Of a DNA stretch of 64,000 bases, positions 1,882-57,362 are shown one piece after another (position 1 is the first letter of the stretch; each line of letters starts with the position of its first letter). The stretch is taken from assembly GCA_002049455.2 (NCBI GenBank), contig KV919034.1, positions 43,301-107,300 of the forward strand, written 5' to 3'. The stretch comes from Porphyra umbilicalis (Eukaryota > Rhodophyta > Bangiophyceae > Bangiales > Bangiaceae). Both the position numbers and the translations under genes were made by a program. The notes under the pieces are model-generated. The model did not search any database, was not told the DNA's origin, and saw only the letters and a list, made by a program, of their open reading frames with translations.

Positions 1882-3448
1882 CCAGATGACCGTGCACCTA
1901 TTCTCACCGGATAATCCGAGAGGGTTCCGGCGGCGTTGCTTCATGCCAACTACGTGGAATTTTTTGTGGCACCAGCCATTGCGCAAAGCATGGACGGTCC
2001 ACACGTTCTCACTGGTCTATGTCGGGCTCGTCCTGACTGTCGAGTCGGTGAAGAGACATGCACCACCCCAATAAATGCGGCAACTTCGGTTACACCGTGC
2101 ATCGGCCAAACGGCCCGCGTTGTCCTTTCCACGCCACCCCCGGCGCGCACGCGGCTGCTTGAGGTGTGTGCACCGTTGGTCCCTCCCAAGGGCCGACCCC
2201 AGCGCTCATGCGCCGCGCCCCCCCCCCCCCCACTCGCCCTCGCCCATTCCTTGGTCCCACTCTGAAGTTGTGTTGGCTGTTCGCTCCCACCCGCAGCTGT
2301 GGAATGTCGGTCGCCGTGGGCAAAGTGGTGCCCCATGATATCACCGTCGCGGACCTTCGTTTGCCGGCAGAGTCTGCGCGGACGGTGGATCGCGGGCACA
2401 TCGCTCGCATCAAGGCAGAGGTCCGAAGTGGGAACTTCGCCTCTAACGTGTTGCACATGATCGTCTGCGTCGCACCGGAGGACCCTGCCAAGAACCGTCC
2501 TTTCGACGGCTTTCACCGTCGTCGGTCTGTCGGAGGAATTTCCCAACCCGCCGCGACGGACAGCCGTCACCGCCGATGCGAACGGCGTGGCGACCGACGA
2601 CGCGGGCGCTCCAAGCCACCTTGTGAGGGACGATGGGCACGAGGAGGACGGGACCGCCGCGGACGACGGGCTGGAGGAGACCCACAGTTTCGCCACGGAC
2701 GTCGAAGTGGTGGAGGACGAGGTTGACGCCACGGACGACGAGGTGCAGGAGGAGGGCAGTGCCAACGCGGAAGACGGGGAGGCGGACACTGCCGCCGCGG
2801 ACGACGAGGAGGCGGGCAGTGATGAAGAGTACGACGAGGAGGCGGGCAGTGCTGACAAGTACGACGAGGAGGCGGAAACTGCCGCCGCGGACGAAGAGGG
2901 CATCTACGAGGACGACGTGGAGCTTTCAAGCAGTGGCGACGCGGACGAGGGAGCCGCCACGGCAAACGATCCCATGCAGGTGGATCCCGGGGAGGACGGC
3001 GTCGAGACTGGCGGTGGCACGTTCGCCGGCTCTGCCAACGACGTCGCGGAGGATGACGGGAAGGGTGGCGACGATCAAGATGACGGGGAGGGCGTCGATA
3101 TGGATGGTGTGGTCGACGGTGGTGACGCCAATAGGGCGGCTGGTCAGGGGGGGGTTGCCTCCGTCCCGGGCTGCTGGCGGGTGGGGGTCATGACGTGGGC
3201 TCATAGCCACGGGGGGTGACCGCGACCGCAGACGGGCCCCTGTGGGCCCCGTTGTATTGGTTGGGCGGACGCTCTGCGTCTGTTGGACACAAGTAAAAAA
3301 CACACACGCAGATCGACTCGTCTGCGCAAATCAATACATCGGAATACTGCGAGCATGCCAAAAAAGTCCAAGGATTTGTCGTCTTCCACCGCCGTCGGAA
3401 TGCTCTCGGATTATCCGGTGAGAATAGGTTCACGGTCATCTGAGAAAA
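1882..3448. mobile_element. Candidate TIR DNA element carrying the acidic-protein gene
   Basis: The forward end at 1882 (ccagatgaccgtgcaccta, then ttctcaccggataatccgag) is matched by an inverted end at about 3412-3448. The match continues past the outermost 45 bp into a GC-rich subterminal segment, giving arms of roughly 65 bp with mismatches. The interior is about 1.57 kb and contains the acidic ORF at 2304-3219. In units B and C the right end is preserved (about 23638-23670 and 31463-31497), but I found no matching left end. No transposase is encoded inside, so it would be non-autonomous. Element boundaries are inferred. Confidence 0.45.
2304..3219 (+). pseudogene. Acidic-tail protein with an alternative N-terminus, frameshifted (unit A)
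   Basis: The ATG at 2304 opens a frame whose first 65 or so residues (ITVADLRLP...HIARIKAEVRSGNF...MIVCV) faintly resemble a ParB/sulfiredoxin-like fold. I would not name a function. From about 2515 the homology to the LRR/acidic gene of unit B begins, but its acidic reading frame is one base away from the frame of the N-terminus. A frameshift or splice between about 2500 and 2590 is therefore needed to join the parts. The tail is roughly one third Asp/Glu, built from short repeats such as DEEAGS and ADDEV. The stop that ends the unit B protein (TAG) is CAG here, so the frame runs on about 25 residues to 3219. It is unlikely to be functional as assembled. Confidence 0.5.
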
Positions 3449-7373: not shown

Positions 7374-7380
7374 TATAAAA
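7374..7380 (+). promoter_or_regulatory. TATA box of Fanzor-like gene A
   Basis: A canonical TATAAAA inside gcctataaaagcgcc is preserved identically in all three units, at matching distance upstream of the large ORF. The first ATG downstream (7400) is only about 20 bp away and out of frame, so the in-frame ATG at 7617 is preferred as start. Confidence 0.7.
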
Positions 7381-7616: not shown

Positions 7617-10600
7617 ATGGCCGACCCGGGTGACAGTGCCCGTACGCCTCTGGGGCACGCGACACACCCTGGTGTGTGGGGGTATGTTCGACCGGGCCCC
7701 ACTCCCCGCGTCCCTGACGCGGCGGGTGTCGGCGGGCACGCCCGTGCTCGCCGGAACGACGCCATGCGCGTGGACGCACCCCCGTCCGTCGCAAGCAGCG
7801 AGCACTCGCGTCGTTCGTCCGGTACCGGCGCCGGTGCGTGCGGCACCGTCCCGCTGGGGGGCATTGGGGCGACACCCGGCACCGACGCAGACGACGTGTC
7901 GTCGACAGACGAGGAGGAGGCGCCCGGCACGTCGACGGCGCTGCGAGCGCGTCGCGGCCCCACCGGGGCGCGGCGGTCAGCCATGATGGCGGGCGGTGGT
8001 GCGGGTGTGGCAGACGGCAACGGGCCCGCGGGTGGGGGCACCGCTGGCGGCGGCGCACGGGCCGTGGCCGCGACCACCAGAGTCGGTACCGCGGGCGGTC
8101 CCGGCGACGACACTCGCGCCTCGGCGATTGGCGGCGACCACGGCGGTCTGCTCCCTCGGGTGGGTGGGGGTGCCCCCGACAGTCGCCCACCACCAACGGG
8201 GGGCGTCTCCGCGCGCCCCGCGCCGTCGGCGAGTGTCCCCAGCGGCCCCCGTGTGCCCGGCGGGGTGCCCCCCCCTTCAGCACCAGTGACCGACCCCGCC
8301 CCACAGACAGCTGGTGGGAGCGGCGGTGGGGACGCCGGGGGCGGGGACGGCCCCGTCGACGGACCCGTCGACAAGGACCTCGACCGTGACGGCGCCGTCA
8401 CGCGTCTGGGTGCGACCGGCGGGGACGCGGCCATCAAGGCCGGCGGCCACGTAGACGCCGCGCGACAATGTGCCGCGTCTGCCGTGCGGTCCGCGACGGT
8501 CGAAGTCGCCGCCGCCGCCGCCGCGTGCGAGGCGGCCGGCGACGTGGGGCCGGTGGGCCCCTTGCGTGACGCGAGCACCCTGCTGGCCAAGCTGCTCGCA
8601 GCAAACCCCTTGCACGCGCGGGGCACCACGTCGTACGCGTCGGCAGCGCTGGGCGACGCCGAGTCGGCCTCGACCGCAGTGCTGCGAGCCATCGACGCGG
8701 TGACCGTGCCGCCGCACCAACCACCCGCTGCCGTCCCTGGGGACGGCGGCGCGGCAGACGCTGCCGCCGGCGCTGCGACAGCCGCCGACAATGCCGCGGT
8801 GGTCGCCTGTCGGCGCCTGCGCGCGCGCGCCCGGCACGCCGCAAGCAGCGTCTTGTCCGCGGCCAAGGGCTTGATACCCATGGCAACCCCCGACGCGGGG
8901 GACCACCCGGGCGACGACGCGGGTGCCGGTGCTGGGGGCGCGCCGTCGAGCGGCGGCGGCAAGCGCTCTGGTCGACGCCACTGTGGCGGCTGCGGGGCGA
9001 CGGGGCACTATGTGCGGACATGTCCAGCAGACGCAGCCGCCAAGGCTGCGCACGCGGCGCGCGTGGCGGCCGCCCGGGCGGCCAAGGGCGCCGCGGCCGG
9101 CAGCGGCCGTACCAGGTGCGGTGCCTGCCACGCGCGGGGCCACACGCGCGCGAGCGCAGCGTGTCCGCTGCGTGCCGTCGCCCACGGCTGGTCGGACCAC
9201 AATGAGGACCGCGGCCGCGACTTGGCGTGCGCCGACCAGTACCGCATGACGGGGGAGGTGACGACGACGGTGGCCGTGTCGGTCGACCGGTTTTTTGGCG
9301 TCTGGCGGCGGAGGCTCCCGCGGCCGCCCACAGACTGCGCGCCGCCAGCGGGACGCCCGCCGACCACCTCGGCTCATCGCAAGACCGAGGCGTCTGCCGA
9401 GGCCGACACCAATGCGGCGGCGGGCGCGGCTGCGCTGACAAAGTTGGCTACGGCGCAGACGCAGCATCTGCGCCTCGTCTCCATTGTCATGGACGGCACG
9501 ATGCGGTACCTGCTTGAGGGCGTCGACGGTGGTGGCGGCGGGCTGGGTGCGGGTGGTGGTGGCGGCGGCCGACGCACGCTCGACGAGTTTATGGCGGCCG
9601 TGCCGGCGTCGCTGACGGGCAGCTTCGGGCTTGCGTGGAAGCAGGTCGCCTCGACCGTCTCGTGTCGCGGTGTCCACGCGTTTGACGGCGCCCCCCGGCG
9701 GGCGTGTGTCTCTTGCTCGGGGTGGCGCGCGCACGCCAAGCCGCGTGCAGACGTCAAGGCGGCAACCGGCGACGGCGATTACACCGCCTTTGTTGCCGCG
9801 TCGGCGGCAGTGGCTGCGGCCGTAACCGAGCGAGAGCAGCTGCCGTGCAGCACGCTGCTGCCGAGTCCGGCCGAAACGGGCGGCTGGGCGACCGTCGCAA
9901 CGTCCTTTGAAAACCACTATGTGACGCACGTCACGTCGGCGGTCAAGGCCATTGCAAAGTGCATCGTCCTCGCGGTCTACCCGCAGGCCCCCGGCGGTCT
10001 CGACGGACAGCGCCGCGCGGCACTGATTGCGGTCCTGGTTGCCGGCCTGCAAGCCGCCGACGGCACGCGCCCGCCGTCGTTCAAGTGGCCGGCGGGCAAA
10101 GTGTCTGCGGCGCATGGGGCTGCCATGACGGCCGCCGCGGCGCTGGCCTGCGACACCGTCCTCGTGTACACGGATGGCGGCGGTCAGCGGCGCTCGCTGC
10201 TGCACCTAGACACGTTGGCCCTGCGACAGCGGCCGCTACACGTTTACCCGTTGCTGCACTATGCCCAGGCCCTGTGCGTCGGCGCCGGCATCGAGGCGGC
10301 CGACACGTCACCTGGCCGAGTCGCTGCGTGCACCGGGTACGCGCGCGTCAGCGGCGCGCTGCTCCGCAAGCGCCTGGCGGTCCACGGGGGTTCAATCCCA
10401 CCAGAGACGGCCGACGGTTTGGTCGTGCAGGCGCTGCTCCGCCGCGCGGGCATCATCCGCGCCTCGACGGTCGTTGGCCCCTCCATCGTGTCGGACGGCG
10501 TCGGCGTGCACTTTACGATACGACACCCCGCCACTGCAGCGTCGACAGCGGCCGCTCGGCGGGCGCGCCGCAGGGCGGCCAGTGACGGTCGCGGGGGGGG

Positions 10601-13061
10601 GGTCCGACCGAGACGGCGAGCGTGCGGACGCAGCTCGACCGCATGGCGTTTGCGCCCGACGCTGTCAAGGAGCTGGCGTTTGTCGGGTGGGACCCGGGCG
10701 TCGCGTCCATCGTCGCTGCCTACTGCCCCGGGCAGTGCCGTTTGCGCTCTCACCGGCACCGCACCTGCACGCGTACCGGGCGTATCGGGCGCTGCGGGTC
10801 GCGGCCGACGCGCTCGCGCGGGCGGCCATGGCCGCGACCGCAGCTGCAGAGTGCCACGTGCGGCGCAGCGGTCGGTTCCTGCCGACCGTCGACACGCTGC
10901 GCGCAACGGTGGCCCGGATTGTTCGTTCGGCCAAGGCCACCGCGGCGAACCTACCCGTCGGCGGCGGTGACGCGGTGTGCGGGACGACCAAAAAGCGCGG
11001 CCGTGGCGCGCTCGGCGCGTCGACCGGGGCGGAGGGATCTCCCCCAAAGCAGAGTCGTACAGCTCTGGTGGGGGGCCCGCCGGCGGCCACGCCGGCGGCA
11101 CAGGCGTCTGTGCCGCCTTTGGAGGACGCACCGACGCAGCCGGCTGCTGGCTGCCCCCCCCCCCCCCCCCCCGACCCGCCCAAGCGGCCGCGGTACACGC
11201 AGCCACAGTATGGCGACGAGTGGCTGACGCCCGCGCAGCGGAAAGAGGTCGCCCGCAAGCGGGGGACGAGCGGCCCCGACGGCCGGCGGCCTCTGCTGAC
11301 GCGCCTGCGCGCGCTCGCACACGCCGCGGTCAACGACGGCGGCGTCCAACCGTGGCGCCTCCCCAACCACGTGTGTGTGTGGATGGGCGAGGCGGCCCTG
11401 TTCAAGGCGTCGACCGACGCGGCCGCCGACGCAGGCGCCAAGGCTGAGGCGGCAGCGAACGCAGAGGCGGCGTGGTACGCCCTGTCGGTCAGGGATCAGC
11501 GACACGCTGCGCGCTTGTGCCACAGCGCGGCGCGCACCGCGAAACGGGCGGCGGCGGCGGCGCGCAACGCAAAGCGCGCGGCGGCTGCGGCCGCCGCCGC
11601 TGCACCCGCTGCGCCACCGCAGCTCGGCGCGCCCGGCACGTCGCTGCCGTCGGCCGACCGCTTGCGCGTGTTGTGTGCCGCACTCAAACGTGCGGCCCCG
11701 CCGGGGCGCCGGCGCGTGTGCGTCCCGCCCACTGGTGCGACGCTTGTCGTCTCCAAAGGCGCGTACCGCGAGGCGACGGGCGCCGGTATGACGAGGCGTG
11801 CCGAGGCGGCAGCGGTGGCGGTGTGGGCGGCGGCACACCCAGGCGTGCCGCGCGAGTCACTGACGGCCGGGTGCTCCCTCAAGGTCCCGACGTGGGGCGC
11901 GTGGGTGGTGGCGGCCACTGCGCGCATCGCCCGCACCTACACAGATGCCTATCAGGCGGCGTACGGGGCGGCCGCGACGTACGGTCAACGCAAGGCGCGG
12001 CTACACGCCCTCATTCAGCGCAACCGGTACGCGGCGGTGCTGGCGCGCCGCTTGACGGGTGGACTCCTGCGGCGCACGGTGGACGGCACCAAGGCGGTGC
12101 TGGCGATTGGGCGGTGCAGGCCCCGCGCCGGCAGCGTCGACCTCGTGCGGCGCATGGCCAAACACGTGCACCTCGTGTACGTGGACGAGCACAATACGAG
12201 CCAGACGTGCGCCGAGTGCGGCCACGGCTTGTGCAACACGTACGTGTCGCCCGACTCGCCGGTCGACCTGACGCCCCTCAAGGCGGCAAGCAGTTACGCA
12301 CATCGCGCGTCGGCGTCGGCGGCCAAGCGCGCCTCACCCCTCCGCGGCGGCCGGCGCGCGCGACGGGGTGTGACGACCGGCAGTCGGTCGGGTCCACGCG
12401 ACGGTGCGGCTGCCCAGCGCGCCAAGGAGCACGCAGAGGCGGTGCGGACAATGGTGCTGCAGGCGATTGCGGCTCACGGCAAGTGGGCGTTTGGGACCGA
12501 CCCGCTGGCGCTGTGGGGGGTCAAGCTGTGTACCAACGTCGCCTGCCCGGCTTCGTACGTCGGGCGAGACACCAACGCGGCGCGCAACATGTCCAAGATT
12601 GCCATCAAGAGCATGCGGGTCGGAGCATCTTCCCCCACATCCGGGGGTACACCGTGTCACGCGCGCCACCCCAGGAAGACCATGTACAGGCGGTGCGGCA
12701 CGCGGCTGCGATCGACGCGGGTACCTACGAGGCCGGCTACGGGTGGACGCGGTGTTCACCCACGTCGTGGGAGCCCTGGCGCCGACCTGTCGTCGCCGAC
12801 GCGCCGGTCGCAGAGGCGGGGACGGCCCCCACGGCCGTGCCAGTGGCGGCGCCAACGGTGCGGGTAGAGGCGCTGGGTGTGGTGGCAGACGGGGCGAACT
12901 ACGCAGCTGCTGCGTCGGCAAGCGGTGACCTGGCGACGAGTAACGTCGGCCAGATGGCTGCTGCCAGCCCCGCGCCAGCCGTGGGGCACAGCCACTCGTC
13001 TTCGAGCCGCCTCGAGCGGGTAATCGTAGACTGTTCACCAGGTTCATCTCGTGGGGTGTGA
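7617..13061 (+). pseudogene. Giant Fanzor-like (eukaryotic TnpB/OrfB family) RNA-guided nuclease, copy A, frameshifted
   Basis: The ATG at 7617 opens an uninterrupted frame to about 10600. Single-base shifts follow at a G10 run (10593-10602; copy C has G11), near 10730 and near 12616. Across them the homologous protein is about 1,815 residues. In order: a disordered Ala/Gly-rich N-terminus; zinc knuckle 1 at about 455-470 (CGGCGATGHYVRTC, CX2CX4HX4C); knuckle 2 at about 500-515 (CGACHARGH...C); a region with SFENHYVTHVTSAVK; SDGVGVHFTIRHP just before RuvC-I; GWDPGVASI (Asp codon at 10691); VVSKGAYREATG; VDEHNTSQTC (Glu codon at 12187); zinc-ribbon cysteines at 12208, 12217, 12529 and 12544; and GRDTNAARNM (RuvC-III Asp codon at 12568). 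Motif order matches Fanzor/TnpB nucleases, which cut DNA guided by an omega-RNA. The canonical RuvC-II Glu is not evident, and the Glu of VDEHNTS is the candidate replacement. The protein is much longer than a typical TnpB. I am confident of the family and uncertain about activity. Confidence 0.85.
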
Positions 13062-13064
13062 ATA

Positions 13065-13096
13065 GGGAGCTTCGCTCCTCACCTCTGCCAGAGGTG
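13065..13096 (+). ncRNA. Paired hairpins at the 3' border of unit A; candidate omega-RNA scaffold end
   Basis: Hairpin 1 is GGGAGC-TTC-GCTCCT (13065-13079) and hairpin 2 is CACCTCT-GCC-AGAGGTG (13080-13096). They abut each other, begin 4 bp after the nuclease stop codon, and are conserved in copy C, where only one loop base differs. Homology between A and C ends 10 bp later (gactactggtc), and unrelated sequence follows. In Fanzor/TnpB systems the guide RNA comes from the 3' end of the gene and reads out into the flank. Assigning that role here is inference. Confidence 0.4.
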
Positions 13097-13106
13097 ACTA
13101 CTGGTC

Positions 13107-17546: not shown

Positions 17547-17671
17547 TTGCAGCTGCCTGTCGGTGCGTGGGGACATTGAGTTTGCCATCCTACGGTCTGG
17601 CCTCCTCCACGCCCATCACGTGCAGACGTACGTGAGGGACAGTGACCACCCACCCGGGTCGCGACACATAG

Positions 17672-18052
17672 GTGCAGACGGGTGTGTCGGCGTACCGGGC
17701 ACGTTTTGCTTCCCTCTTCAGTGGCCTGTTTGTTCGTGGGCACGCGGTGCTGCCACACGCAGCAAGCGCACTGATGATGGGCGATGTGGGTACCACCGTG
17801 TCTTTCGCTTTGTGGACCCTGCTGTGCGGCCCCATGGATGGGCAGCCCCCTCTGACCGACAACGTTCGAGCGGCCGAACACTTCCATGAGGCGATTTCGA
17901 CCAACGGCGGCGACGACGATCAGCACCGGCTCCAAGCCCGCCTCGACCTGTTTCTCACCCTTCTTTTTGCGCAGATGTCATGCGCCCACGTGCGTGTGAA
18001 TGCGGCGACGTTCCGTTCGAAACGCAAAGCCGATGGTGGTGGGGGTGCGTAG
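17672..18052 (+). CDS. Hypothetical ORF fragment, possible 3' exon
   Basis: The frame of about 126 codons opens right after a stop, starts with GTG, and ends at TAG. The peptide (LFVRGHAVLPHAASALMMGD ... then FRSKRKADGGGGA) has ordinary composition with a basic tail, unlike the surrounding low-complexity translations. No family is recognised. It lies left of a TIR end at about 18255-18293, so it may be the 3' end of a decayed transposon gene whose 5' part was lost at the composition break at 17546. Confidence 0.3.
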   Translation: MQTGVSAYRARFASLFSGLFVRGHAVLPHAASALMMGDVGTTVSFALWTLLCGPMDGQPPLTDNVRAAEHFHEAISTNGGDDDQHRLQARLDLFLTLLFAQMSCAHVRVNAATFRSKRKADGGGGA

Positions 18053-18431: not shown

Positions 18432-18510
18432 GGGGGAGCCCGCGACAATCCAGAGCCCATGCGGGTCCATCCTTGTCCTGCTTGTCGACACCCCCCCGCC
18501 ACCCTCGACA

Positions 18511-19562
18511 ATGGCGACGTCCCCGACACGCCCGCCGATCACGGTCGAGACGTTGGTGCGCGGCTCCCGCCGTGCTGCCGCCGCTGAGGGTCCACCCGAC
18601 CCCCTCGTGGCCGACGCGCCCCGGCCTGGTGTGACCATCGTCCTACCGATCCGTGAATACGCCTCTACGCGTGAATACGTCTTTACCACGCGGGAGCGCG
18701 ACGCGCTGCACAATGGGACCATGCTACGCGATGAGACGGTCGACAAGATTGGTCAGCTGCTCATGTCGCTCCACTGCTCTGAGCGTGAAGCTGGCGTCAC
18801 GTGGCTGATGCCGTCTGCCACGGTCGGAATGATTCTGGGTGGCTACTCTGCCGACCGCTCTGGTGTTGGCGGCGGGGTGCGCCCCGCGACTGACGCGCGG
18901 TGGGCGTCTGATCCGTCAGAGGCCTTCCACTCCTCGATTTGGCGCAACACTGCGAGCACGTCGCCATTCAAGATGGAGACGGTCTTCCTCCCAATCGTCA
19001 CGGGGCAGCATTGGATCCTGGCCGTCCTTTGTGGTTTGCCAGGTCTGCTAAAGGACTTGCACCTGGAGGCCGCCAAAACCGAGGTCGTGACCGGCCGCCG
19101 ACGGCTCGATGCGGCCGCCGTCAAGCGGGGGAGGCTCCACCGATGCCAACTCTTGATGTTTGACTCGGCAGTCGGTTTCTGTAACCACGAGCACGTGGCC
19201 GCGTCTGTGCGCGCGTGGCTGTTGGAGGAGTTCGTTGGCGGCACACGGAGGTGCCACCCAATCGGCCCTTGTTGGCCCGCTTCCTGGGTGGCGTCGTCCT
19301 TTGGACACTCGTGCACACCGGCCCGCAGGCCACGGGCAGCTTGACTTGTGGGGCCTTTGTCTTGGAAGCGCTGCACACGTGGCTTGTTACGAGCGCAGGC
19401 AAACGTGCTGCATTGTTGGGAAAGGTGTGGCACTCGCACAAAGGTGACGGTCGAGATTGGGTGCTCGGCGAGGATGCCGGTCCACGGTTTTTGAAGTGGA
19501 TGACAACGTTTCTAGACGCGTCCACGTCTCTTCCCGTCGATGGCAGTGTGGTTGTGGTGTAG
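18511..19562 (+). pseudogene. ULP1-like (C48 family) cysteine protease with one frameshift
   Basis: The ATG at 18511 (gacaatggcg context) opens a frame to 19344. At about 19245-19260 the homology steps into the frame that ends at 19562. The His-Trp motif is TGQHWIL (His about codon 167). The Asp is in LLMFDSAVG (about codon 218). After the shift, TGPQATGSLTCGAFVLEAL supplies the oxyanion Gln and nucleophile Cys (codon 19347-19349). Catalytic order His-Asp-Gln-Cys and spacing match ULP1/SENP proteases, which process SUMO or related modifiers; many eukaryotic DNA transposons carry ULP1 domains. The total is about 350 residues. A small intron instead of a frameshift cannot be excluded. A 17-T tract follows the stop codon. 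Confidence 0.75.
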
Positions 19563-21644: not shown

Positions 21645-23228
21645 ATGAGCGGACATTGGCTGTACACAGCGTGTAGGTCGTCCCACCACCAGTGTGGTCC
21701 TGACGCGTGGCGGGTCCTCCAACCAAAAAACCTTGTCAGGGGCGCGCCTCTGACACTGTCTCCCATTCGTGTGCATTCGTGCGCGCCCCGGGTGGACGTT
21801 GGGTCTCAACAGGGGGCACGTGGACGCGCTGAGCGCCGCACACAAAGACCGTCAAGAGCGCCCCTGCGGCCAGTGCTGCAACACGGTCGTCTTGTGGTGC
21901 CACCGCTCACCGTGCCCACCCCCGACGCGACCACCGCCGGGCTGTTTCCGCGGGCCCCCCGCCACCGTGCGGGCGCCCCAGTCAGTGCCCCCTTCCCCCC
22001 CCCCTGCCCCCCTTCCCTGTGTTCACCAATGGACAAGCAGGGCGTCTGGTTGGGACGCATCCGCGAGAGTGGCTGTTGGTTTGCCGCTTCGCAAGAGTTG
22101 GAAGCGGAAGATGTTGAAACGTTCCTTGTCGAGGGGATCGAGGTCGCGGTGAAAACCCGACCGCTGTGGTGCATCCACCTCGCTCGCAACCGGTTGACGA
22201 AGCTGAGCTGCTTTGGATGGTCGGCGGCGTGGGGTGTGCGTGTGCTCGACATCTCGTTCAACCCCTTGCGCCGTTGGCCCAAAGATCCCCTCCGAGCGCT
22301 TGCCGCGACGCTGCGCTCCCTCACCGCGACCGACTGTCCCTTTACTACCGCGGACGTGACGGGGCTGGTGCACGTGCGGTGGTTGGACCTCGCACGCAAC
22401 CAGTTGCGCGCAGCGCCGGATGGGCTCGCAGGCCTGACCAACCTGGACGTCCTCAATTTGGTTGACAATCAGATCACCGCCCGAGACTGGCCGGCGTTTG
22501 TGGCCAACATTGTCAATGTGGAGCACAACCCCGTGTGTCGGTCCCCGGGCTGGTCGGTTTCCGTGACATCCCGGAATGGCGACGCCGACCCGACCGTCGT
22601 CGGTCTGTCGCGGGAACTTCCCGCCCCGCCGCGACTCGCAGCCGTCCCCGCCGATGCAAACGGTGGGGCGACGGACGACGAGGGCGCTGCAAGCCACCCA
22701 CCCGTGGTGGACGACGGACAGGAGGAGGACGGGACCGCCGCGGACGGCGGGCGGGAGGAGGGGACGCCCAGCTCTGAAACGGTCTACGAGATGGTGGATT
22801 GTTCCACGGACGAGGACGACGACAAGGACGGCAGGAACGACGAGGACGGCAGTGCCGACACAGACGACGACAAGGAGGGCGGCAGTGGTGACGCGGACGG
22901 CAAAGAGGGCGGCAGTGGTGACGCGGACGGCCAGAAGCAGGGCAGGGGCGACGCGGACGACGACAACGAGGACAGTGAGGGCATCTACGAGTCAGACGTG
23001 GATGTTTCAGACATGGTCGACGCGGACGAGGGAGCCGCCACGGCAAACGATGCCATGCAGGTGGACCCCCGTGAGGACGGCGTCGCGACTGGGTGTGGCA
23101 CGGTCGCCGGCTCTGTCAACGGCATTGTCGAGGATGGCGGGAAGGGTGGCGACGATCAACATGACGGGGTGGGCGTCGATATGGGTGGTGTGGTCGACGG
23201 TGGTGACGCCAATAGGGCGACTGGTTAG
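21645..23228 (+). CDS. Leucine-rich-repeat protein with acidic C-terminal tail
   Basis: The ATG at 21645 gives 527 residues; starting at 22029 would give 399. From about residue 160 there are about five LRRs (e.g. LWCIHLARNRLTKL, VRVLDISFNPL, VRWLDLARNQL, LDVLNLVDNQI). A linker follows, and then about 180 residues very rich in Asp, Glu, Gly and Ser with short repeats (DADGKEGGSG). LRR domains bind proteins, and an acidic tail is common in chromatin or histone-binding proteins. Neither role is demonstrated here. The tail and everything downstream belong to repeat unit B, while the LRR half is absent from unit A, which has a different N-terminus. This is the only intact version of the gene in the window. 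Confidence 0.7.
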   Translation: MSGHWLYTACRSSHHQCGPDAWRVLQPKNLVRGAPLTLSPIRVHSCAPRVDVGSQQGARGRAERRTQRPSRAPLRPVLQHGRLVVPPLTVPTPDATTAGLFPRAPRHRAGAPVSAPFPPPCPPSLCSPMDKQGVWLGRIRESGCWFAASQELEAEDVETFLVEGIEVAVKTRPLWCIHLARNRLTKLSCFGWSAAWGVRVLDISFNPLRRWPKDPLRALAATLRSLTATDCPFTTADVTGLVHVRWLDLARNQLRAAPDGLAGLTNLDVLNLVDNQITARDWPAFVANIVNVEHNPVCRSPGWSVSVTSRNGDADPTVVGLSRELPAPPRLAAVPADANGGATDDEGAASHPPVVDDGQEEDGTAADGGREEGTPSSETVYEMVDCSTDEDDDKDGRNDEDGSADTDDDKEGGSGDADGKEGGSGDADGQKQGRGDADDDNEDSEGIYESDVDVSDMVDADEGAATANDAMQVDPREDGVATGCGTVAGSVNGIVEDGGKGGDDQHDGVGVDMGGVVDGGDANRATG

Positions 23229-27216: not shown

Positions 27217-29864
27217 ATGGCCGACCCGGGTGACAGTGCCCGTACGCCTCTGGGGCACGCGACACACCCTGGTGTGTGGGGGTATGTTCGACCGGGCCCC
27301 ACTCCCCGCGTCCCTGACGCGGCGGGTGTCGGCGGACACGCCCGTGCTCGCCTGAACGACGCCATGCGCGTGGACGCACCCCCGTCCGTCGCCAGCAGCG
27401 AACACTCGCGTCGCGCGGCTGGTACCGGCGCCGGTGCGTGCGGCACCGTCCCGCTGGGGGGCATTGGGGCGACACCCGGCGGCGACGCAGACGACGTGTC
27501 GTCCACAGACGAGGAGGAGGCGCCCGGCACGTCGACGGCGCTGCGAGCGCGTCGCGGCCCCACCGGGGCGCGGCGGTCAGCCATGATGGCGGGCGGTGGT
27601 GCGGGTGTGGCAGACGGCAACGGGCCCGCGGGTGGGGGCACCGCTGGCGGCGGCGCACGGGCCGTGGCCGCGACCACCAGAGTCGGTGCCGCGGGCGGTC
27701 CCGGCGACGACACTCGCGCCTCGGCGATTGGCGGCGACCACGGCGGTCTGTCCCTCGGGTGGGGGGGGGTGCCCCCGACAGCCGCCCACAACAACGGGGG
27801 GCGTCCCCGCGCGCCCCGCGCCGTCGGCGAGTGTCCCCAGCGACCCCCTTGTGCCCGGCGGGGTGCCCCCCCTTCAGCACCAGTGACCGACCCCGCCCCA
27901 CAGACAGTGGTGGGAGCGGCAGTGGGGACGGGGGGGCGGGGACGGCCCCGTCGACGGACCCGTCGACAAGGACCTCGACCGTGACGACGCCGTCACGCGC
28001 TGGGTGCGACCGGCGGGGACGCGGCCATCAAGGCGGCGGCCACGTAGACGCCGCGCGACAATGTGCCGCGTCTACCGTGCGGTCCGCGACGGTCGAAGTC
28101 GCCGCCGCCGCCGCCGCGTGCGAGGCGGCCGGCGACGTGGGGCCGGTGGGCCCCTTGCGAGACGCGAGCACCCTGCTGGCCAAGCTGCTCGCAGCAAACC
28201 CCTTGCACGCGCGGGGCACCACGTCGTACGCGTCGGCAGCGCTGGGCGACGCCGAGTCGGCCTCGACCGCAGTGCTGCGAGCCGTCGAAGCGGTGACCGT
28301 GCCGCCGCACCAACCACCCGCTGCCGTCCCTGGGGACAACAGCGCGGCAGACGCTGCCGCCGGCGCTGCGACAGATGCCGACAATGCCGCGGTGGTCGCC
28401 TGTCGGCGCCTGTGCGCGCGCGCCCGGCACGCCGCAAGCAGCGTCTTGTCCGCGGCCAAGGGCTTGATCCCCATGGCAACCCCCGACGCGGGGGACCACC
28501 CGGGCGACGACGCGGGTGCCGGCGCAGGGGGCGCGCCGGCGAGCGGCGGCGGCGGCACGCGTGGCCGCCTGCGCCGATGCGGCGGCTGCGGGGCGACGGG
28601 GCACAATGTGAAAACGTGTGCAGCCGACGCGGCAGCCAAGGCGGCGCACGCGGCGCGTGTGGCGGCCGCCGGGGCGGCCAAGGGCGCCGCGGCCGGCAGC
28701 GGCCGGACAAAGTGCGGTGCCTGCCACGCGCGCGGCCACACGCGCGCCAGCGCAGCGTGTCCGCTGCGTGCCGTCACCCACGGCTCGTCAGACCACAATG
28801 AGGACCGCGGCCGCGACTTGGCGTGCGCCGACCAGTACTGCATGACGGGGGAGGTGACGACGACGGTGGCCGTGTCGGTCGACTGGTTTTTTGGCGTCTG
28901 GCGGCGGAGGCTCCCGCGGCCGCCCACAGACTGCGCGCCGCCAGCGGGACGCCCGCCGACCACCTCGGCTCATCGCAAGACCGAGGCGTTTGTCGAGGCC
29001 GTCACCAATGCGGTGGCGGGTGCGGCTGCGCTGACAGAGTTGGCAACGGCGCAGACGCAGCATCTGCGCCTCGTCTCCATTGTCATGGACGGCACGATGC
29101 GGTACCTGCTCGAGGGCGTCGACGGTGGTGGCGGCGGGCTGGGTGCGGGTGGTGATCGCGGCGGCCGACGCACGCTCGACGAGTTTATGGCGGCCGTGCC
29201 GGCGTCGCTGACGGGCAACCACGGGCTTGCGTGGAAGCAGGTCGCCTCGACCGTCTCGTGTCGCGGTGTCCACGCGTTTGACGGCGCCCCCCGGCGGGCG
29301 TGTGTCTCTTGCTCGGGGCGGCGCGCGCATGCCAAGCCGCGTGCAGACGTCAAGGCGGCAACCGGCGACGGCGTTTACACCGCCTTTGTTGCCGCGTCGG
29401 CGGCAGTGGCGGCGGCCGTAACCGAGCCAGAGCAGCTGCCGTGCAGCACGCTGCTGCCGAGTCCGGCCGACACGGGCGGCTGGGCGACCGTCGCAACGTC
29501 CTTTGAAAACCACTATGTGACGCACGTCACGTCGGCGGTCAAGGCCATTGCAAAGTGCATCGTCCTCGCGGTCTACCCGCAGGCCCCCGGCGGCCTGGAC
29601 GGACAGCGCCGCACGGCACTGATTGCGGTCCTCGTTGCCGGCCTGCAAGCCGCCGACCGCACGCGCCCGCCGTCGTTCAAGTGGCCGGCGGGCAAAGTGT
29701 CTGCGGCGCATGGGGCTGCCGTGACGGCCGCCGCGGCGCTGGCCTGCGACACCGTCATCGTGTACACGGATGGCGGCGGTCGGCGGCGCTCGCTGCTGCA
29801 CCTAGACACATTGGCCCAGCGACAGCGGCCGCTGCACATCTACCCGCTCCTCCACTATGCCCAG
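27217..29864 (+). pseudogene. Fanzor-like gene copy B, N-terminal part only
   Basis: The ATG at 27217 corresponds to that of copy A. Single-base indels near 27750 and in the following 300 bp move the frame. From about 28000 one frame reads through both zinc knuckles (CGGCGATGHNVKTC; CGACHARGHTRASAAC) to LHYAQ. There it is cut by the Copia LTR at 29865, before SDGV...RHP and RuvC-I. The nuclease domain is therefore absent and this copy cannot cut DNA. Translation continues only two residues into the LTR before a stop. Sequence is close to A and C, so the knuckle region is well supported by three copies. Confidence 0.85.
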
Positions 29865-30691: not shown

Positions 30692-30880
30692 NNNNNNNNN
30701 NNNNNNNNNNNNNNNNNNNNNNNNNNNNNNNNNNNNNNNNNNNNNNNNNNNNNNNNNNNNNNNNNNNNNNNNNNNNNNNNNNNNNNNNNNNNNNNNNNNN
30801 NNNNNNNNNNNNNNNNNNNNNNNNNNNNNNNNNNNNNNNNNNNNNNNNNNNNNNNNNNNNNNNNNNNNNNNNNNNNNNNN
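30692..30880. other. Assembly gap (189 N)
   Basis: The gap runs from inside Copia gag directly into the tail of an acidic-protein gene (unit C). A Copia element is about 5 kb, and the missing 3' end of unit B would also have to lie here. The true gap is therefore much larger than 189 bp, or the join is wrong. Confidence 0.95.
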
Positions 30881-35038: not shown

Positions 35039-38000
35039 ATGGCCGACCCGGGTGACAGTGCCCGTACGCCTCTGGGGCACGCGACACACCCTGGTGTGTG
35101 GGGGTATGTTCGACCGGGCCCCACTCCCCGCGTCCCTGACGCGGCGGGTGTCGGCGGGCACGCCCGTGCTCGCCTGAACGACGCCATGCGCGTGGACGCA
35201 CCCCCGTCCGTCGCCAGCAGCGAACACTCGCGTCGCGCGGCTGGTACCGGCGCCGGTGCGTGCGGCACCGTCCCGCTGGGGGGCATTGGGGCGACACCCG
35301 GCGGCGACGCAGACGACGTGTCGTCCACAGACGAGGAGGAGGCGCCCGGCACGTCGACGGCGCTGCGAGCGCGTCGCGGCCCCACCGGGGCGCGGCGGTC
35401 AGCCATGATGGCGGGCGGTGGTGCGGGTGTGGCAGACGGCAACGGGCCCGCGGGTGGGGGCACCGCTGGCGGCGGCGCACGGGCCGTGGCCGCGACCACC
35501 AGAGTCGGTGCCGCGGGCGGTCCCGGCGACGACACTCGTGCCTCGGCGATTGGCGGCGGCCACGGCGGTCTGCTCCCTCGGGTGGGGGGGGTGCCCCCGA
35601 CAGCCGCCCACAAGCAACGGGGGCGTCCCCGCGCGCCCCGCGCCGTCGGCGAGTGTCCCCAGCGACCCCCTGTGCCCGGCGGGGTGCCCCCCCTTCAGCA
35701 CCAGTGACCGACCCCGCCCCACAGACAGCTGGTGGGAGCGGCGGTGGGGACGGCGGGGGCGGGGACGGCCCCGTCGACGGACCCGTCGACAAGGACCTCG
35801 ACCGTGACGACGCCGTCACGCGTCTGGGTGCGACCGGCGGGGACTCGGCCATCAAGGCTGGCGGCCACGTAGACGCCGCGCGACAATGTGCCGCGTCTGC
35901 CGTGCGGTCCGCGACGGTCGAAGTCGCCGCCGCCGCCGCCGCGTGCGAGGCGGCCGGCGACGTGGGGCCGGTGGGCCCCTTGCGAGACGCGAGCACCCTG
36001 CTGGCCAAGCTGCTCGCAGCAAACCCCTTGCACGCGCGGGGCACCACGTCGTACGCGTCGGCAGCGCTGGGCGACGCCGAGTCGGCCTCGACCGCAGTGC
36101 TGCGAGCCGTCGACGCGGTGACCGTGCCGCCGCACCGACCACCCGCTGCCGTCCCTGGGGACGGCAGCGCGGCAGACGCTGCCGCCGGCGCTGCGACAGA
36201 TGCCGACAATGCCGCGGTGGTCGCCTGTCGGCGCCTGTGCGCGCGCGCCCGGCACGCCGCAAGCAGCGTCTTGTCCGCGGCCAAGGGCTTGATCCCATGG
36301 CAACCCCCGACGCGGGGGACCACCCGGGCGACGACGCGGGTGCCGGTGCAGGGGGCGCGCCGGCGAGCGGCGGCGGCAAGCGCTCTGGTCGACGCCACTG
36401 TGGCGGCTGCGGGGCGACGGGGCACTATGTGCGGACGTGTCCAGCCGACGCAGCCGCCAAGGCTGCGCACGCGGCGCGCGTGGCGGCCGCCCGGGCGGCC
36501 AAGGGCGCCGCGGCGGCAGCGGCCGTACCAGGTGCGGTGCGTGTCACGCGCGGGGCCACACGCGCGCGAGCGCAGCGTGTCCGCTGCGTGCCGTCGCGCA
36601 CGGCTGGTCGGACCACAATGAGGACCGCGGCCGCGACTTGGCGTGCGCCGACCAGTACCGCATGACGGGGGAGGTGACGACGACGGCGGTCGTGTCTGTC
36701 GACCGGTTCTTTGGTGTTTGGCGGCGGCGGCTCCCGCGGCCGCCCGCAGACTGCCCGCCGCCAGCGGGACGCCCGCCGACCACCTCGGCTCATCGCAAGA
36801 CCGAGGCGTCTGCGAGGCGACACCAATGCGGCGGCGGGCGCGGCTGCGCTGACAGAGTTGGCTACGGCGCAGACGCAGCATCTGCGCCTCGTCTCCATTG
36901 TCATGGACGGCACGATGCGGTACCTGCTCGAGCGCGTCGACGGTGGTGGCGGCGGGCTGGGTGCGGGTGGTGGTGCCGGCGGCCGACGCACGCTCGACGA
37001 GTTTATGGCGGCCGTGCCGGCGTCGCTGACGGGCAGCCAGGGCTTGCGTGGAAGCAGGTCGCCTCGACCGTCTCGTGTCGCGGTGTCCACGCGTTTGACG
37101 GCGCCCCCCGGCGGGCGTGTGTCTCTTGCTCGGGGCGGCGCGCACACGCCAAGCCACGTGCGGACGTCAAGGCAGAAACAGGCGACGGCGATTACACCGC
37201 CTTTGTTGCCGCGTCGGCGGCAGTGGCGGCGGCCGTAACCGAGCCAGAGCAGCTGCCATGCAGCACGCTGCTGCCGAGTCCGGCCGAAACGGGCGGCTGG
37301 GCGACCGTCGCAACGTCCTTTGAAAACCACTATGTGACGCACGTCACGTCGGCGGTCAAGGCCATTGCAAAGTGCATCGTCCTCACGGTCTACCCGCAGA
37401 CCCCGGCGGGTCAGACGGGCACCCCCGCGCGGCACTGATGCGGTCCTCGTTGCCGGCCTGCAAGCCGCCGACGGCACGCGCCCGCCGTCGTTCAAGTGGC
37501 CGGCGGGCAAAGTGTCTGCGGCGCATGGGGCTGCCATGGCGGCCGCCGCGGCGCTGGCCTGCGACACCGTCCTCGTGTACACGGATGGCGGCGGTCGGCG
37601 GCGCTCGCTGCTGCACCTAGACACATTGGCCCTGCGACAGCGGCCGCTGCACGTCTACCCGTTGCTGCACTATGCCCAGGCCCTGTGCGTCGGCGCCGGC
37701 ATCGAGGCGGCCGACACGTCACCTGGCCGAGTCGCTACGTGCACCGCGTTCGCGCGTGTCAGCGGCGCGCTTCTCCGCCGGCGCCTGGCGGTCCACGGGG
37801 GTTCAATCCCACCACAGACGGCCGACGGTTTGGTCGTGCAGGCGCTGCTCCGCCGCGCGGGCATCATCCGCGCCTCGACGCTCGTTGGCCCCTCCATCGT
37901 GTCGGACGGCGTCGGCGTGCACTTTACGACACGACACCCCGCCACTGCCGCGTCGACGGCGGCCGCTCGGCGGGCGCGCCGCAGGGCGGCCAGTGACGGT

Positions 38001-40435
38001 CGCGGGGGGGGGGGTCCGACCGAGACGGCGAGCGTGCGGACGCAGCTCGACCGCATGGCGTTTGCGCCCGACGCTGTCAAGGCGCTTGTCTTTGTCGGGT
38101 GGGACCCGGGCGTCGCGTCCATCGTCGCTGCCTACTGCCCCGGCGCAGTGCCGTTTGCGCTCTCACCGGCACCGCACCTGCACGCGTACCGGGCGTATCG
38201 GGCGCTGCGGGTTGCGGCCGACGCGCTCGCGCGGGCGGCCATGGCCGCGACCGCAGCTGCAGAGTGCCACGTGCGGCGCAGCGGTCGGTCCCTGCCGACC
38301 GTCGACACGCTGCGTGCAACGGTGGCCCAGATTGTTCGTGCGGCCAAGGCCACCGCGGCGGGCCTACCCATCGGCGGCGGTGCCGCGGTGTGCGGGACGA
38401 CCAAAAAGCGCGGCCGTGGCGCGCTCGGCGCGTCGACCGGGGCGGAGGGATCTCCCCCAAAGCAGAGTCGTACAGCTCTGGTGGGGGGCCCGCCGGCGGC
38501 CACGCCGGCGGCACAGGCGTCTGTGCCGCCTTTGGAGGACGCACCGACGCAGCCGGCTGCTGCGCTGCCCCCCCCCCCCCCCCCGACCCGCCCAAGCGGC
38601 CGCGGTACACGCAGCCACAGTATGGCGACGAGTGGCTGACGCCCGCGCAGCGGAAAGAGGTCGCCCGCAAGCGGGGGACGAGCGGCCCCGACGGCCGGCG
38701 GCCGCTGCTGACGCGCCTGCGCGCGCTCGCACACGCCGCGGTCAACGACGGCGGCGTCCAACCGTGGCGCCTCCCCAACCACGTGTGTGTGTGGATGGGC
38801 GAGGCGGCCCTGTTCAAGGCGTCGACCGACGCGGCCGCCGACGCAGGCGCCAAGGCTGAGGCGGCAGCGAACGCAGAGACGGCGTGGCACGCCCTGTCGG
38901 TCGGGGGCCACCGACACGCTGCGCGCGTCTGGCACAGCGCGGCGCGCACCGCGAAACAGACGGCGGCGGCATTGCGCAGGGCAGAGCGAGTGGCGGCTGC
39001 GGCGGCCGCCGCTGCGCCGACAGAGCCCCCGCAGCCTGGTGCTCCGGGCACGCCGCTGCCGTCGGCAGACCGCTTGCGGGTGTTGTGCGCCGCCCTCCGG
39101 CGCGCGGCCACGACCACGAGACCGCGCGCGCGCGCTCCGCCGGCGGGGGCGACTCTGGTCGTCTCCAAGGGCGCGTACCGCGAGGCGACGGGCGCCGGTA
39201 TGACGAGGAGCGCCGAGGCGGCAGCGGCGGCGGCGTGGGCGGCGACCAATCCCGACGTGTCGCGCGAGTCACTGACGGCCGGGTGCTCCCTGAAAGTCGC
39301 TTCGTGGGGCGCGTGGCTGGTGGCGGCCACTGCGCGCATCGCCCGCACCTACACAGACGCCTATCAGGCGGCGTACGGGGCGGCCGCGACGTCGGGCCGG
39401 CGAAAGGCGCGCCTACACGCCCTCATCCAGCGCAACCGGTACGCGGCAAAGTTGGCCCGCCGCATGACGGGTGGGCTCCTGCGGAGCACGGTGGACTGCA
39501 CCAAGGCGGTGCTGGCGATTGGGCGGTGCAGGCCGCGCGCCGGCAGCGTCGACCTCGTGCGGCGCATGGCCAAACACGTGCACCTCGTGTACGTGGACGA
39601 GCACAATACGAGCCAGACGTGTGCAGAGTGCGGTCACGGCTTGTGCAACACGTACGTGTCGCCCGACTCGCCGGTGGACCTGACGCCCCTCAAGGCGGCA
39701 AGCAGCTTCACGCATCGCGCGTCGGCGTCGGCGGCCAAGCGCGCCTCGCCCCTCCGCGGCGGCCGACGCGCGCGACGGGGTGTGACGACCGGCAGTCGGT
39801 CGGGCCCACGCGACGGTGCGGCTGCCCAGCGCGCCAAGGAGCACGCAGAGGCGGTGCGGACAAAGGTGCTGCAGGCGATTGCGGCTCACGGCAAGTGGGC
39901 GTTTGGGACCGACCCGCTGGCGCTGTGGGGGGTCAAGCTGTGTACCAACATCGCGTGTCCCGCGACGTACGTCGGGCGAGACACCAACGCGGCGCGCAAC
40001 ATGTCCAAGATTGCCATCAAGAGCATGCAGGGTCAGAGCATCTACCCCCACATCCGGGGGTACACCGTGTCGCGCGCGCCACCCCAGGAAGACCCTGAAC
40101 AGGCGGTGCGGCACGCGGCTGCGATCGAGGCGGGTACCTACGAGGCCGGCTACGGGTGGACGCGGTGTTCACCCACGTCGTGGGAGCGTTGGCGCCGACC
40201 TGTCGTCACCGACCCGGCGGTCGCGGAGGCCGGGACGGCCCCCACGGCCGTGCCAGTGGCGGCGCCAACGGTGCGGGTAGAGGCGCTGGGTGTGGTGGCA
40301 GACGGGGCGCACGATGCAGCTGCTGCGTCGGCAAGCGGTGACCTGGCGACGAGTAACGTCGGCCAGATGGCTGCTGCCAGCCCCGCGCCAGCCGCCGGGC
40401 ACAGCCACTCGTCTTCGAGCCGCCTCGCGGGGTAA
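35039..40435 (+). pseudogene. Fanzor-like RNA-guided nuclease, copy C, frameshifted mainly in the N-terminal half
   Basis: The ATG at 35039 matches copy A. Single-base indels relative to A occur near 35585, 36295, 36515, 36815, 37040 and 37415-37435, and at a poly-C run at 38568-38584. One frame runs from 37365 through SDGVGVHFTTRHP and RuvC-I (VGWDPGVASI, Asp codon at 38103) to the poly-C. A second runs without a stop from there to the TAA at 40435. The latter contains VVSKGAYREATG, VDEHNTSQTC, the four zinc-ribbon cysteines and GRDTNAARNM (Asp codon at 39980), then a Ser/His-rich tail. All catalytic motifs present in A are unchanged. About 100 residues separate the two CxxC halves of the zinc ribbon, far more than in bacterial TnpB. 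Confidence 0.85.
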
Positions 40436-40476
40436 TCGTAGACTGTTCACCAGGTTCATCTCGTGGGGTATGAATA

Positions 40477-40508
40477 GGGAGCTTCGCTCCTCACCTCTTC
40501 CAGAGGTG
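40477..40508 (+). ncRNA. Paired hairpins at the 3' border of unit C; candidate omega-RNA scaffold end
   Basis: GGGAGC-TTC-GCTCCT (40477-40491) and CACCTCT-TCC-AGAGGTG (40492-40508). The stems are identical to copy A, with one loop substitution. Homology with A stops at 40518. Confidence 0.4.
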
Positions 40509-40718
40509 ACTACTGGTCAAGAAGGGCGTGAAACTGTGTCTTGGCCAATAATTGAGCCGGATAACATGGATCGACAGCAACAGCGCAGAACGCAGGCGTT
40601 TGCTCTCCTGGCAACAACCTTTGATTGTGACGCAAAAATCGCACTGAAGCTTGTGAGCCAACCAGCGCAGTGCACCTCGTTGCTAGATCCACCACGAGCC
40701 CGGTTCTGACTCAAATTG

Positions 40719-48417: not shown

Positions 48418-48554
48418 CGTGGCGGGATCCGCCAAATCCAGATCGGGTTATCGGTGCGTGCCGGTCAACGGGCAGGGGATTGAACGTGCGAAAGCGGGGT
48501 GCCGCACCGAGCGCAGCGGTCTCGACGGCGGCGTTTGGATCGTCGCCGTCACTA

Positions 48555-57153: not shown

Positions 57154-57362
57154 GGCGAGGTACGGGCGGCGTTGCCGCCGCCGGCTAATCGTGTGTTGCC
57201 ACAAGCCGGCGGCAACCTCACATGTTACGGGGCCACCCGCCGCGAAAGCGGTGGCTCGCAGGCGCCGCCGCCATCCAACGGGCCGTCTGAAGCCGTCTGG
57301 GAGTCGGAACCGCCGGCTGTAGATCAACCGTAAGCCGGCGACGCGCAGCCCTCACCCTCCGA

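Follow-up and report, generated by a model that had tools for sequence, protein, structure and literature searches.

A 64,000-nucleotide (nt) stretch of the genome of the red alga Porphyra umbilicalis (GCA_002049455.2, contig KV919034.1, positions 43,301-107,300 of the forward strand; hereafter, the window) contains a giant gene at the end of a large DNA element with several genes. Judged from its sequence, this gene probably encodes a Fanzor1-like RuvC nuclease, whose guide may come from the DNA that flanks the element. An initial annotation of the window had described a giant Fanzor-like nuclease gene; the present analysis adds three copies within the window, dozens of copies genome-wide, the multi-gene element, a fixed 3' end and a target-site signature.

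Identification of a probable Fanzor1-like nuclease

A search of the genome assembly (665 contigs, 84 Mb) with the TNB profile PF07282 gave 32 places, and 20 loci around such places were taken for comparison. The window itself, whose G+C content ranges from 55 to 80% in 2-kb steps, holds three copies of the Fanzor gene, which we call copies 1, 2 and 3. The features of copy 1 that bear on the identity of its product are as follows.

7617..13061 (+), Fanzor1-like gene, copy 1, ~1,824 codons, its frame broken by three 1-nt deletions as compared with locus L009
9177..10616 (+), presumed WED/REC lobe, ending in SIVSDGVGVHF and assigned from its position and the SDG motif
10691..10693 (+), putative catalytic Asp of RuvC-I, within GWDPG
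12187..12189 (+), putative Glu of RuvC-II at the Fanzor "Ealt" position, within DEHNTSQTC
12208..12546 (+), TNB zinc ribbon (PF07282), CxxC followed by CX4C 103 residues on
12568..12570 (+), putative Asp of RuvC-III, within GRDTNAARN

In the protein, GWDPG is followed by DEHNTSQTCAEC, whose glutamate sits six residues before the first cysteine, and then by CX4C and RDTNAARN. The combination of DPG with a glutamate six residues before CxxC is given as the Fanzor fingerprint in section 23 of PMC10711439, and the Fanzor1 form of this fingerprint, with the DPG in RuvC-I, is present here. When the L009 protein was shuffled, the complete ordered fingerprint arose in none of 200,000 shuffles even with relaxed spacing, and DPG with Glu-x6-CxxC alone arose in 503 of 200,000. 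The glutamate, the four ribbon cysteines and the last aspartate are kept in all eight aligned sequences, and DPG in all four that cover it. At the position where Fanzor1 WED domains carry TDG, according to PMC10711439, all six aligned sequences covering the site have SDG.

The initial annotation had proposed a Fanzor/TnpB affinity on the basis of a series of motifs, and each of these is indeed present: SDGVGVHF in the frame ending at 10970, GWDPGVASI in the frame starting at 10622, and VSKGAYREATG, VDEHNTSQTC and GRDTNAARNM in the frame ending at 12867. The affinity is supported by the order of the motifs, by the PF07282 profile and by a profile-profile match (hhalign) to 23 TnpB/Fanzor-like proteins (87%, P 3.8e-6) that spans only 21 columns; the 23 proteins were gathered from viral contigs by motif and include one DPG protein (L113). 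The outcome of the profile searches is itself mixed. The PF07282 cut-off of 26.3 bits is exceeded in L023 (26.4) and in protein P0004 (33.2), and the frame of copy 1 falls just below it (26.1), as do L013 (25.5) and the whole L009 frame (19.7); the NCBIfam TnpB model matches at the right place, below its threshold (12.2 of 100 bits). The gene is also carried by a transposable element, as had been suggested, in that it is repeated in the genome within a multi-gene element with a shared 3' end.

That the resemblance is due to chance or convergence, and that the protein is unrelated to Fanzor/TnpB, is very improbable. Such an explanation could draw on the Ala/Gly-rich composition of the protein, on homologue searches that returned only members of the same family at 62-94% identity (8000 candidates scored in each search), and on the absence of a structure match by sequence. 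It is countered by the shuffles, by the PF07282 matches over cut-off in several copies and by the catalytic residues, whose order is kept even where copies have diverged.

The spacing of the motifs is unusual. The glutamate lies 495 residues from DPG, and the zinc ribbon has an internal gap of 103 residues, both counted from the GWDPG-based positions (the protein has another DPG at residue 3), whereas the published Fanzor1 patterns that we compared are DPG-x120-160-E with zinc x12-18, or D-x125-275-TS. Because the spacing lies outside both, we file the gene, on its sequence features, as a Fanzor1-like variant and not as an ordinary member of Fanzor1.

As a side observation, many TnpB-like proteins of viral contigs (L070-L144) have a glutamate six residues before a zinc ribbon (DE..TS..C..C) with no preceding DPG; among the 54 viral-contig frames listed, DPG occurs only in L113, 133 residues before DE..TS..C..C.

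Integrity of the reading frame

Locus L009, on contig C3, has 1,921 uninterrupted codons, 1,824 of them counted from the ATG equivalent to window position 7617, and is the sole fully open copy among the 20 loci. Relative to L009, copy 1 has three frame-changing indels, each a 1-nt deletion, near 10.60, 10.73 and 12.62 kb, and copy 3 has 12 frame-changing deletions of 1-2 nt. Read in L009's frame, both are free of stops, as are 18 of the 22 copies overall; one to three stops occur in L019, L020, L023 and L027. The breaks in copies 1 and 3 look like assembly errors, being deletions of one or two bases without nonsense changes. The estimate of about 1,800 codons in the initial annotation is thus borne out after frame correction of copy 1, and the protein is giant by comparison with most Fanzor1 proteins, which have 600-700 residues (PMC11423790).

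The same features invite the hypothesis of a dead or repurposed Fanzor, whose guided cutting was abolished by the large insertions (495 residues between RuvC-I and RuvC-II, and 103 in the zinc ribbon, outside both published motifs) and which now acts as a DNA- or RNA-binding regulator. The broken frames of many copies would fit this hypothesis, as would the scatter among close copies of the ratio of nonsynonymous to synonymous substitution rates (dN/dS). However, we consider it unlikely, since the residues expected of an active nuclease are conserved in the alignments described above (8/8 sequences; 4/4 for DPG), an uninterrupted copy exists in L009, and the breaks of copies 1 and 3 are of the kind expected of assembly errors.

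The N-terminal extension

Two zinc knuckles are found in the N-terminal part of copy 1.

8982..9023 (+), zinc knuckle 1, CGGCGATGHYVRTC
9117..9164 (+), zinc knuckle 2, CGACHARGHTRASAAC, zf-CCHC_6

Knuckle 2 of copy 1 matches zf-CCHC_6 with 23.2 bits against a cut-off of 22, and knuckle 1 matches zf-CCHC_2 with 15.9 bits, below the cut-off of 27; zf-CCHC_6 also stays below cut-off in P0001 (17.6) and P0002 (18.4). All cysteines and histidines of both knuckles are kept in four of the five database proteins that span them (P0001, P0002, P0012 and P0015). The fifth, P0016, has lost some in both knuckles, and L009 has lost the first cysteine of the second. The two knuckles noticed in the initial annotation are therefore real and mostly conserved, with knuckle 2 over its Pfam cut-off and four of five database proteins intact. 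Its suggestion of a Gag-like nature did not hold up: the Pfam scan gave no Gag family and no Gag structural domain in this protein, although it does give one in the Copia element of the same window. The extension had been put at about 1,000 residues, which is probably too large. We infer that the extension proper is nearer 520 residues, because the ~480 residues before GWDPG, with SDG at their end, occupy the position of the Fanzor1 WED/REC lobe. The zinc knuckles and the long N-terminal part probably give the protein additional capacity to bind RNA or DNA.

We estimated selection by comparing a divergent subfamily (L014, L016, L017 and L028) with L009. The dN/dS ratio was 0.32-0.37 in the N-terminal extension (260-262 comparable codons), 0.27-0.31 in WED/REC and 0.43-0.44 in RuvC-I with its linker; the values of 0.17-0.20 for RuvC-II to III and 0.81-1.02 for the C-terminal tail rest on few changes, because this segment was later exchanged with the main family. 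Selection on the protein is visible across the length compared, the N-terminal extension included, apart from the C-terminal tail, which carries no such sign.

A multi-gene element with two backbones

The Fanzor gene is the last gene of the element, and upstream of it a gene A, a gene B, a C48 protease gene and an LRR gene stand in constant order and orientation. The corresponding features in the window are listed here.

2515..3350 (+), 3' part of the LRR gene upstream of copy 1
7374..7380 (+), TATAAAA box, ~240 bp 5' of the Fanzor ATG of copy 1
17669..18046 (+), gene B fragment of copy 2
18508..19341 (+), C48 (Ulp1-like) protease gene of copy 2, assigned by homology
21996..23225 (+), LRR gene of copy 2
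27217..29864 (+), Fanzor gene of copy 2, 3'-truncated
35039..40517 (+), Fanzor gene of copy 3, with the element 3' terminus at 40517, the same as that of copy 1

From gene A to the 3' terminus the element measures 16.5-23 kb in eleven loci, a tally that was assembled by eye from several homology searches. All four upstream genes and the 3' terminus are present for a first backbone in C60, C88, C232 (two), C25, C31, C363, C345 and C272, and for a second backbone, whose proteins are 30-36% identical to those of the first, in C8 and C33. The weakest single match among these loci is gene A of C33 (E 1.6e-4). Parts of the second-backbone element were found in C5 (two), C62, C334 and copy 2 of the window. 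We had also entertained C5 (506-534 kb) as a complete locus and dropped it, because the terminus at 534.6 kb is that of another Fanzor copy (L010), whose upstream sequence is of the other kind.

Gene A has a 450-residue stretch with a DGGHR motif, and neither gene A nor gene B has a Pfam match. The protease gene of the C60 copy exceeds the cut-off for PF02902; the protease of copy 2 is 32% identical to it and itself has no Pfam match. A run of 189 N bases at window positions 30692-30880, shortly before copy 3, interrupts the sequence where copies 2 and 3 adjoin.

Between the two backbones, the Fanzor gene is ~94-97% identical in DNA. Over the first 1,300 codons, the gene of L012 (first kind) is 95-97% identical at the DNA level to those of L020 or L025 (second kind). 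Moreover, in six loci, copies with the other backbone, similarity to copy 1 begins only at window position 7341, just 5' of the TATA box, and does not extend upstream of it; five of these are 94-95% identical to copy 1 in DNA, and L019 is 82-88% identical. Since the genes from A to LRR are old (30-36% identity) yet the Fanzor gene is near-identical, we conclude that the Fanzor gene was exchanged between backbones. In a second exchange, the 3' part of the Fanzor gene was swapped between subfamilies. We also considered whether low dS in the C-terminal tail is a sign of an overlapping RNA, and rejected this explanation in favor of recombination, because the tail of L014 differs from that of copy 1 by 1.3% and its first 1,300 codons by 17.7%.

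Some further observations concern the upstream region. In L032 (2415-4586, +), gene A carries CDGGHRVSAIL, which we take to be reminiscent of ParB/DGQHR proteins. Upstream of gene A in C60 lies a tandem array with a ~195-bp unit (L033 157-7551 and L032 1-1801, with ~38 copies in L033), and units related to this one recur with a 193-bp period in the interval from the protease to the LRR gene (L032 9247-9991) and, in other copies of the element, ahead of gene A. In the second backbone, open reading frames on the opposite strand stand upstream of gene A (L034 1437-4510, -; L035 581-3534, -). Parts of these are reminiscent, by eye, of an AAA-type ATPase or a ParB-like protein; two L034 frames tried against Pfam gave no match.

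The right end of the element

The 3' end of the element is shared by nearly all copies and coincides with a predicted hairpin.

13036..13105 (+), 70-nt terminal hairpin with the element 3' terminus CTACTGGT at 13105; candidate right-end (omega) RNA scaffold

Like copies 1 and 3 of the window, 18 of the 20 loci end at CTACTGGT, after which the sequences are unrelated; the terminus of L018 reads CTACTGAT, with one base changed, and L011 and L014 are without this end. The last 14 nt of the terminus have 71 exact copies in the genome, as against one for the reversed control.

The last 70 nt of copy 1 are predicted to form a long hairpin whose pairing closes at the terminus (folding z -3.47), and L019 likewise has a long hairpin (z -3.32). 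For copy 3 the folding z is -2.70, and 4 of 200 shuffles fold as well. An Rfam search of the right end gave no match. In its position and size, the hairpin is similar to the scaffold of SpuFz1, which is described in the relevant part of PMC10432273 as a 75-nt scaffold with the flank as guide.

Truncated copies and target-site duplications

Another set of 46 termini was read in short stretches of sequence, bringing the total to 66. Among the 46, ten (L169, L178, L181, L182, L189, L193, L194, L200, L202 and L204) belong to another multi-copy family that is otherwise unrelated, having only the last 121-126 bp in common with the Fanzor element; this family is comparable to the Spizellomyces ghost loci, and L199 was also noted among its members. 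Fifteen show no truncation in the sequence read (L168, at a contig end, among them), and L170 has an internal deletion. The remaining 20 are truncated on their 5' side inside the sequence read, in some cases down to ~20 bases, and two of these are doubtful, namely L201 (a 15-nt match) and L203 (whose right flank is the same as that of L019). Among the 64 ends for which right flanks were compared, only one pair was in common, which implies that nearly all copies are separate insertions.

Target duplications of 8-20 bp were found by script in 9 of 23 truncated copies, or 9 of 20 without three copies of the other, hybrid family. None of the 506 mispaired flanks showed one, and no permutation out of 5,000 gave more than 4. 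A wider search added a tenth in L190, where 133 unmatched bases lie between the 10-bp duplication and the element, so that 10 of the 20 strongly 5'-truncated copies carry duplications. An earlier, looser count had given 9 of 26 versus 2 of 650 mispaired flanks. In some copies the duplication is separated from the element by bases of unexplained origin, as many as 15 in L166. Even with offsets allowed, all nine duplications begin at the first base of the right flank. Among longer copies, no duplication of at least 9 bp was seen within the stretches fetched, which reach up to ~8 kb upstream; L017 has one 8-bp match, with a chance expectation of 0.12.

The bases directly before the duplication are CTTAT (L160, L174 and L180), ATTAT (L191), TTTAT (L190), ATCAT (L173), ATGAT (L187), ACTTT (L159), TGTAC (L165) and ATGGT (L166). 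TTAT thus stands there in 5 of 10 copies, and T[TCG]AT in 7 of 10. AT occupies this place in six of the nine scripted cases (binomial P 2.3e-7, given the flank composition), and the next best place has four of nine. L190, which is independent of the motif's discovery, fits it, with TTTTAT directly before the duplication, and L163, whose duplication of 5-6 bp is below threshold, is preceded by GTTAT. The TTAT motif is less firmly established than the sequence features, the selection, the terminus and the duplications.

Variable 5' truncation with intact 3' ends and short duplications is the classic outcome of target-primed reverse transcription. One might therefore suppose that the element moves through an RNA intermediate and that its 3' hairpin is recognized by a reverse transcriptase of the LINE (long interspersed nuclear element) type. 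Truncation down to ~20 bp, the intact 3' ends and the duplications of 8-20 bp are all as this explanation would have them. The 3' end is without an A-rich or simple-repeat tail, however, and TTAT at the insertion site is unlike the A-rich start of the usual nicking site. In addition, no reverse transcriptase was seen by eye within 20 kb of the 71 termini, and no LINE with the same 3' end was found, in non-exhaustive searches in which 150 of 847 candidates were scored. We regard this route as unlikely.

A second alternative, which we consider quite possible though tentative, is that the element is a passenger of the Helitron2 type: a Rep-helicase encoded elsewhere would do all the moving, and the nuclease would be dispensable or regulatory. 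The sections of PMC3627910 on Fanzor1 elements of Chlamydomonas (CRe-1/2/3) describe the same pattern, in which copies keep their 3' ends, are truncated at the 5' end and have duplications of ~7-19 bp immediately following TTTT, and the authors tie it to Helitron2. One Helitron2 feature, a hairpin near the 3' end, can be recognized in our element by predicted folding. The TTAT-like motif that precedes 7 of 10 duplications, all in truncated copies, may correspond to another, insertion after a T-rich tetranucleotide. Helitron Rep domains exist in this genome (28 matches), and the unrelated family that has only the last ~121-126 bp in common also fits a passenger. However, the Rep domains are not near the CTACTGGT end: a comparison by eye found no contig on which one of the 28 matches and one of the 71 termini are less than 100 kb apart. 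Furthermore, the element terminus is not CTRR, and the nuclease residues are conserved in the aligned copies.

A model for the role of the nuclease

The reading that we prefer keeps a function for the nuclease and can be phrased as follows. RNA from the element's 3' terminus would bind the Fanzor protein as scaffold, and the DNA just outside the element, after CTACTGGT, would serve as guide. Given that the insertion site reads TTAT and then the right flank, such a guide would match the empty site with TTAT as target-adjacent motif (TAM). The nuclease would then cut empty sites, which would favor copying or keeping of the element, much as TnpB does in IS200/IS605 elements. Insertion itself may be carried out by other machinery that works 3'-end first, most likely Helitron-like and supplied in trans. 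In IS200/IS605 elements with TnpB, insertion occurs beside a short motif that is also the TAM, and the right-end RNA has its guide from the flank. Insertion motif and TAM would similarly coincide here. It is the RNA, the binding, the cutting and the insertion enzyme that are the inferred parts of this model.

In a bolder version, the giant Fanzor itself directs insertion by opening a TTAT-flanked target to which a copy of the element is joined 3'-end first. The N-terminal domain would hold this copy, as RNA or single-stranded DNA, through the terminal hairpin. Such a process would yield 5'-truncated copies with duplications after the TAM, and a single complex would read both TAM and integration motif, which would make the two identical. 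We think this version improbable.

A number of observations weigh against our explanation as a whole. No recognizable transposase is among the element genes read, and the 5' ends of full-length copies were not found; the left end could not be located because similarity upstream of gene A runs into the ~195-bp repeat arrays. Solved structures searched by sequence gave no match, and by profile only chance-level matches to TEF-1, and both motif spacings lie outside the published patterns. At the right end, the best fold of copy 3 is three stems with the same closing stem and not a single long hairpin, and the folding z is near zero for the 70-nt pieces of L018 and L027, in which the hairpin is 74 nt long, so that these pieces cut off its first 4 nt. 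Covariation analysis of the hairpin found no pairs changed on both sides and no excess over shuffles, a comparison without power because the stems vary too little. The duplication range was widened after looking, the narrower first pass having given 3 of 17 with at least 8 bp. The motif is drawn from 10 truncated copies, five of them with exactly TTAT, and was recognized post hoc; a fresh sample contained no deciding copy (three were of the hybrid family, one was untruncated, and the others were L201 and L203). With regard to selection, the low RuvC-II to III ratio of the divergent subfamily comes from the exchanged segment, and the C-terminal tail is near 1. Among all copies compared with L009, dN/dS is scattered, from 0.30 to 0.79 in the N-terminal extension (16 copies) and from 0.16 to 1.00 in RuvC-II to III (21 copies).

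Comparison with known systems

With Fanzor1 proteins such as SpuFz1, GtFz1 and PpFz1, the protein shares DPG, the Ealt glutamate, the TNB zinc ribbon and RDxNAA, as well as a transposable-element setting; it has SDG for TDG, and the element has a predicted right-end hairpin. It differs in its length of 1,824 residues, as against mostly 600-700 in PMC11423790, in the zinc knuckles within a long N-terminal extension and in the gaps of 495 and 103 residues. The element also differs in that no terminal inverted repeat was seen, its 5' end not having been located. Unlike IS200/IS605 elements with TnpB, it was not found to contain an HUH TnpA, and its truncated copies have duplications.

The sections of PMC3627910 that treat individual elements allow three further comparisons. 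Chlamydomonas CRe-1/2/3 resemble the present element in their intact 3' ends, frequent 5' truncation, 3' hairpin (predicted here) and duplications of variable length, which here too may directly follow a T-rich tetranucleotide, but have TTTT and 5-10 exons where we find a TTAT-like motif, a single open reading frame and four further genes. CMe-1A of the red alga Cyanidioschyzon merolae is likewise a multi-copy Fanzor1 element without terminal inverted repeats, but measures ~3 kb as compared to 16 kb or more, and duplications and target motif are not determined in that section. In Mucor MCi-2, differing 5' parts are joined to a near-identical Fanzor-bearing 3' part, as here, but the section describes no conserved multi-gene backbone. 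For red algae, the open literature searched gave this treatment of Cyanidioschyzon, and for Fanzor in P. umbilicalis it gave no paper; published lists of Fanzors may nevertheless include red-algal sequences that are not named as such.

Other elements in the window

The window also contains a Copia-type retroelement at 44263-48447 (-), with gag, zinc knuckle, integrase and SH3-like domains. A transposase of the PIF/Harbinger type (Plant_tran, DDE_Tnp_4) lies at 51234-53111 (-), with a second fragment at 59297-60775 (-). An open reading frame at 57291-58886 (+) has only a sub-threshold Pfam match (NAM-associated).

Implications

These findings widen the range of Fanzor sizes found in print and indicate that a Fanzor gene was exchanged between long-diverged backbones. 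They bear on how Fanzor1 elements move and on why many DNA elements carry the nuclease. The Porphyra system offers an exact end, dozens of copies, a candidate scaffold and TAM, partner genes that include a C48 protease, and an uninterrupted copy. It could thus be used to test directly whether, in a eukaryotic element, the target-site motif and the TAM of the element's nuclease are identical.

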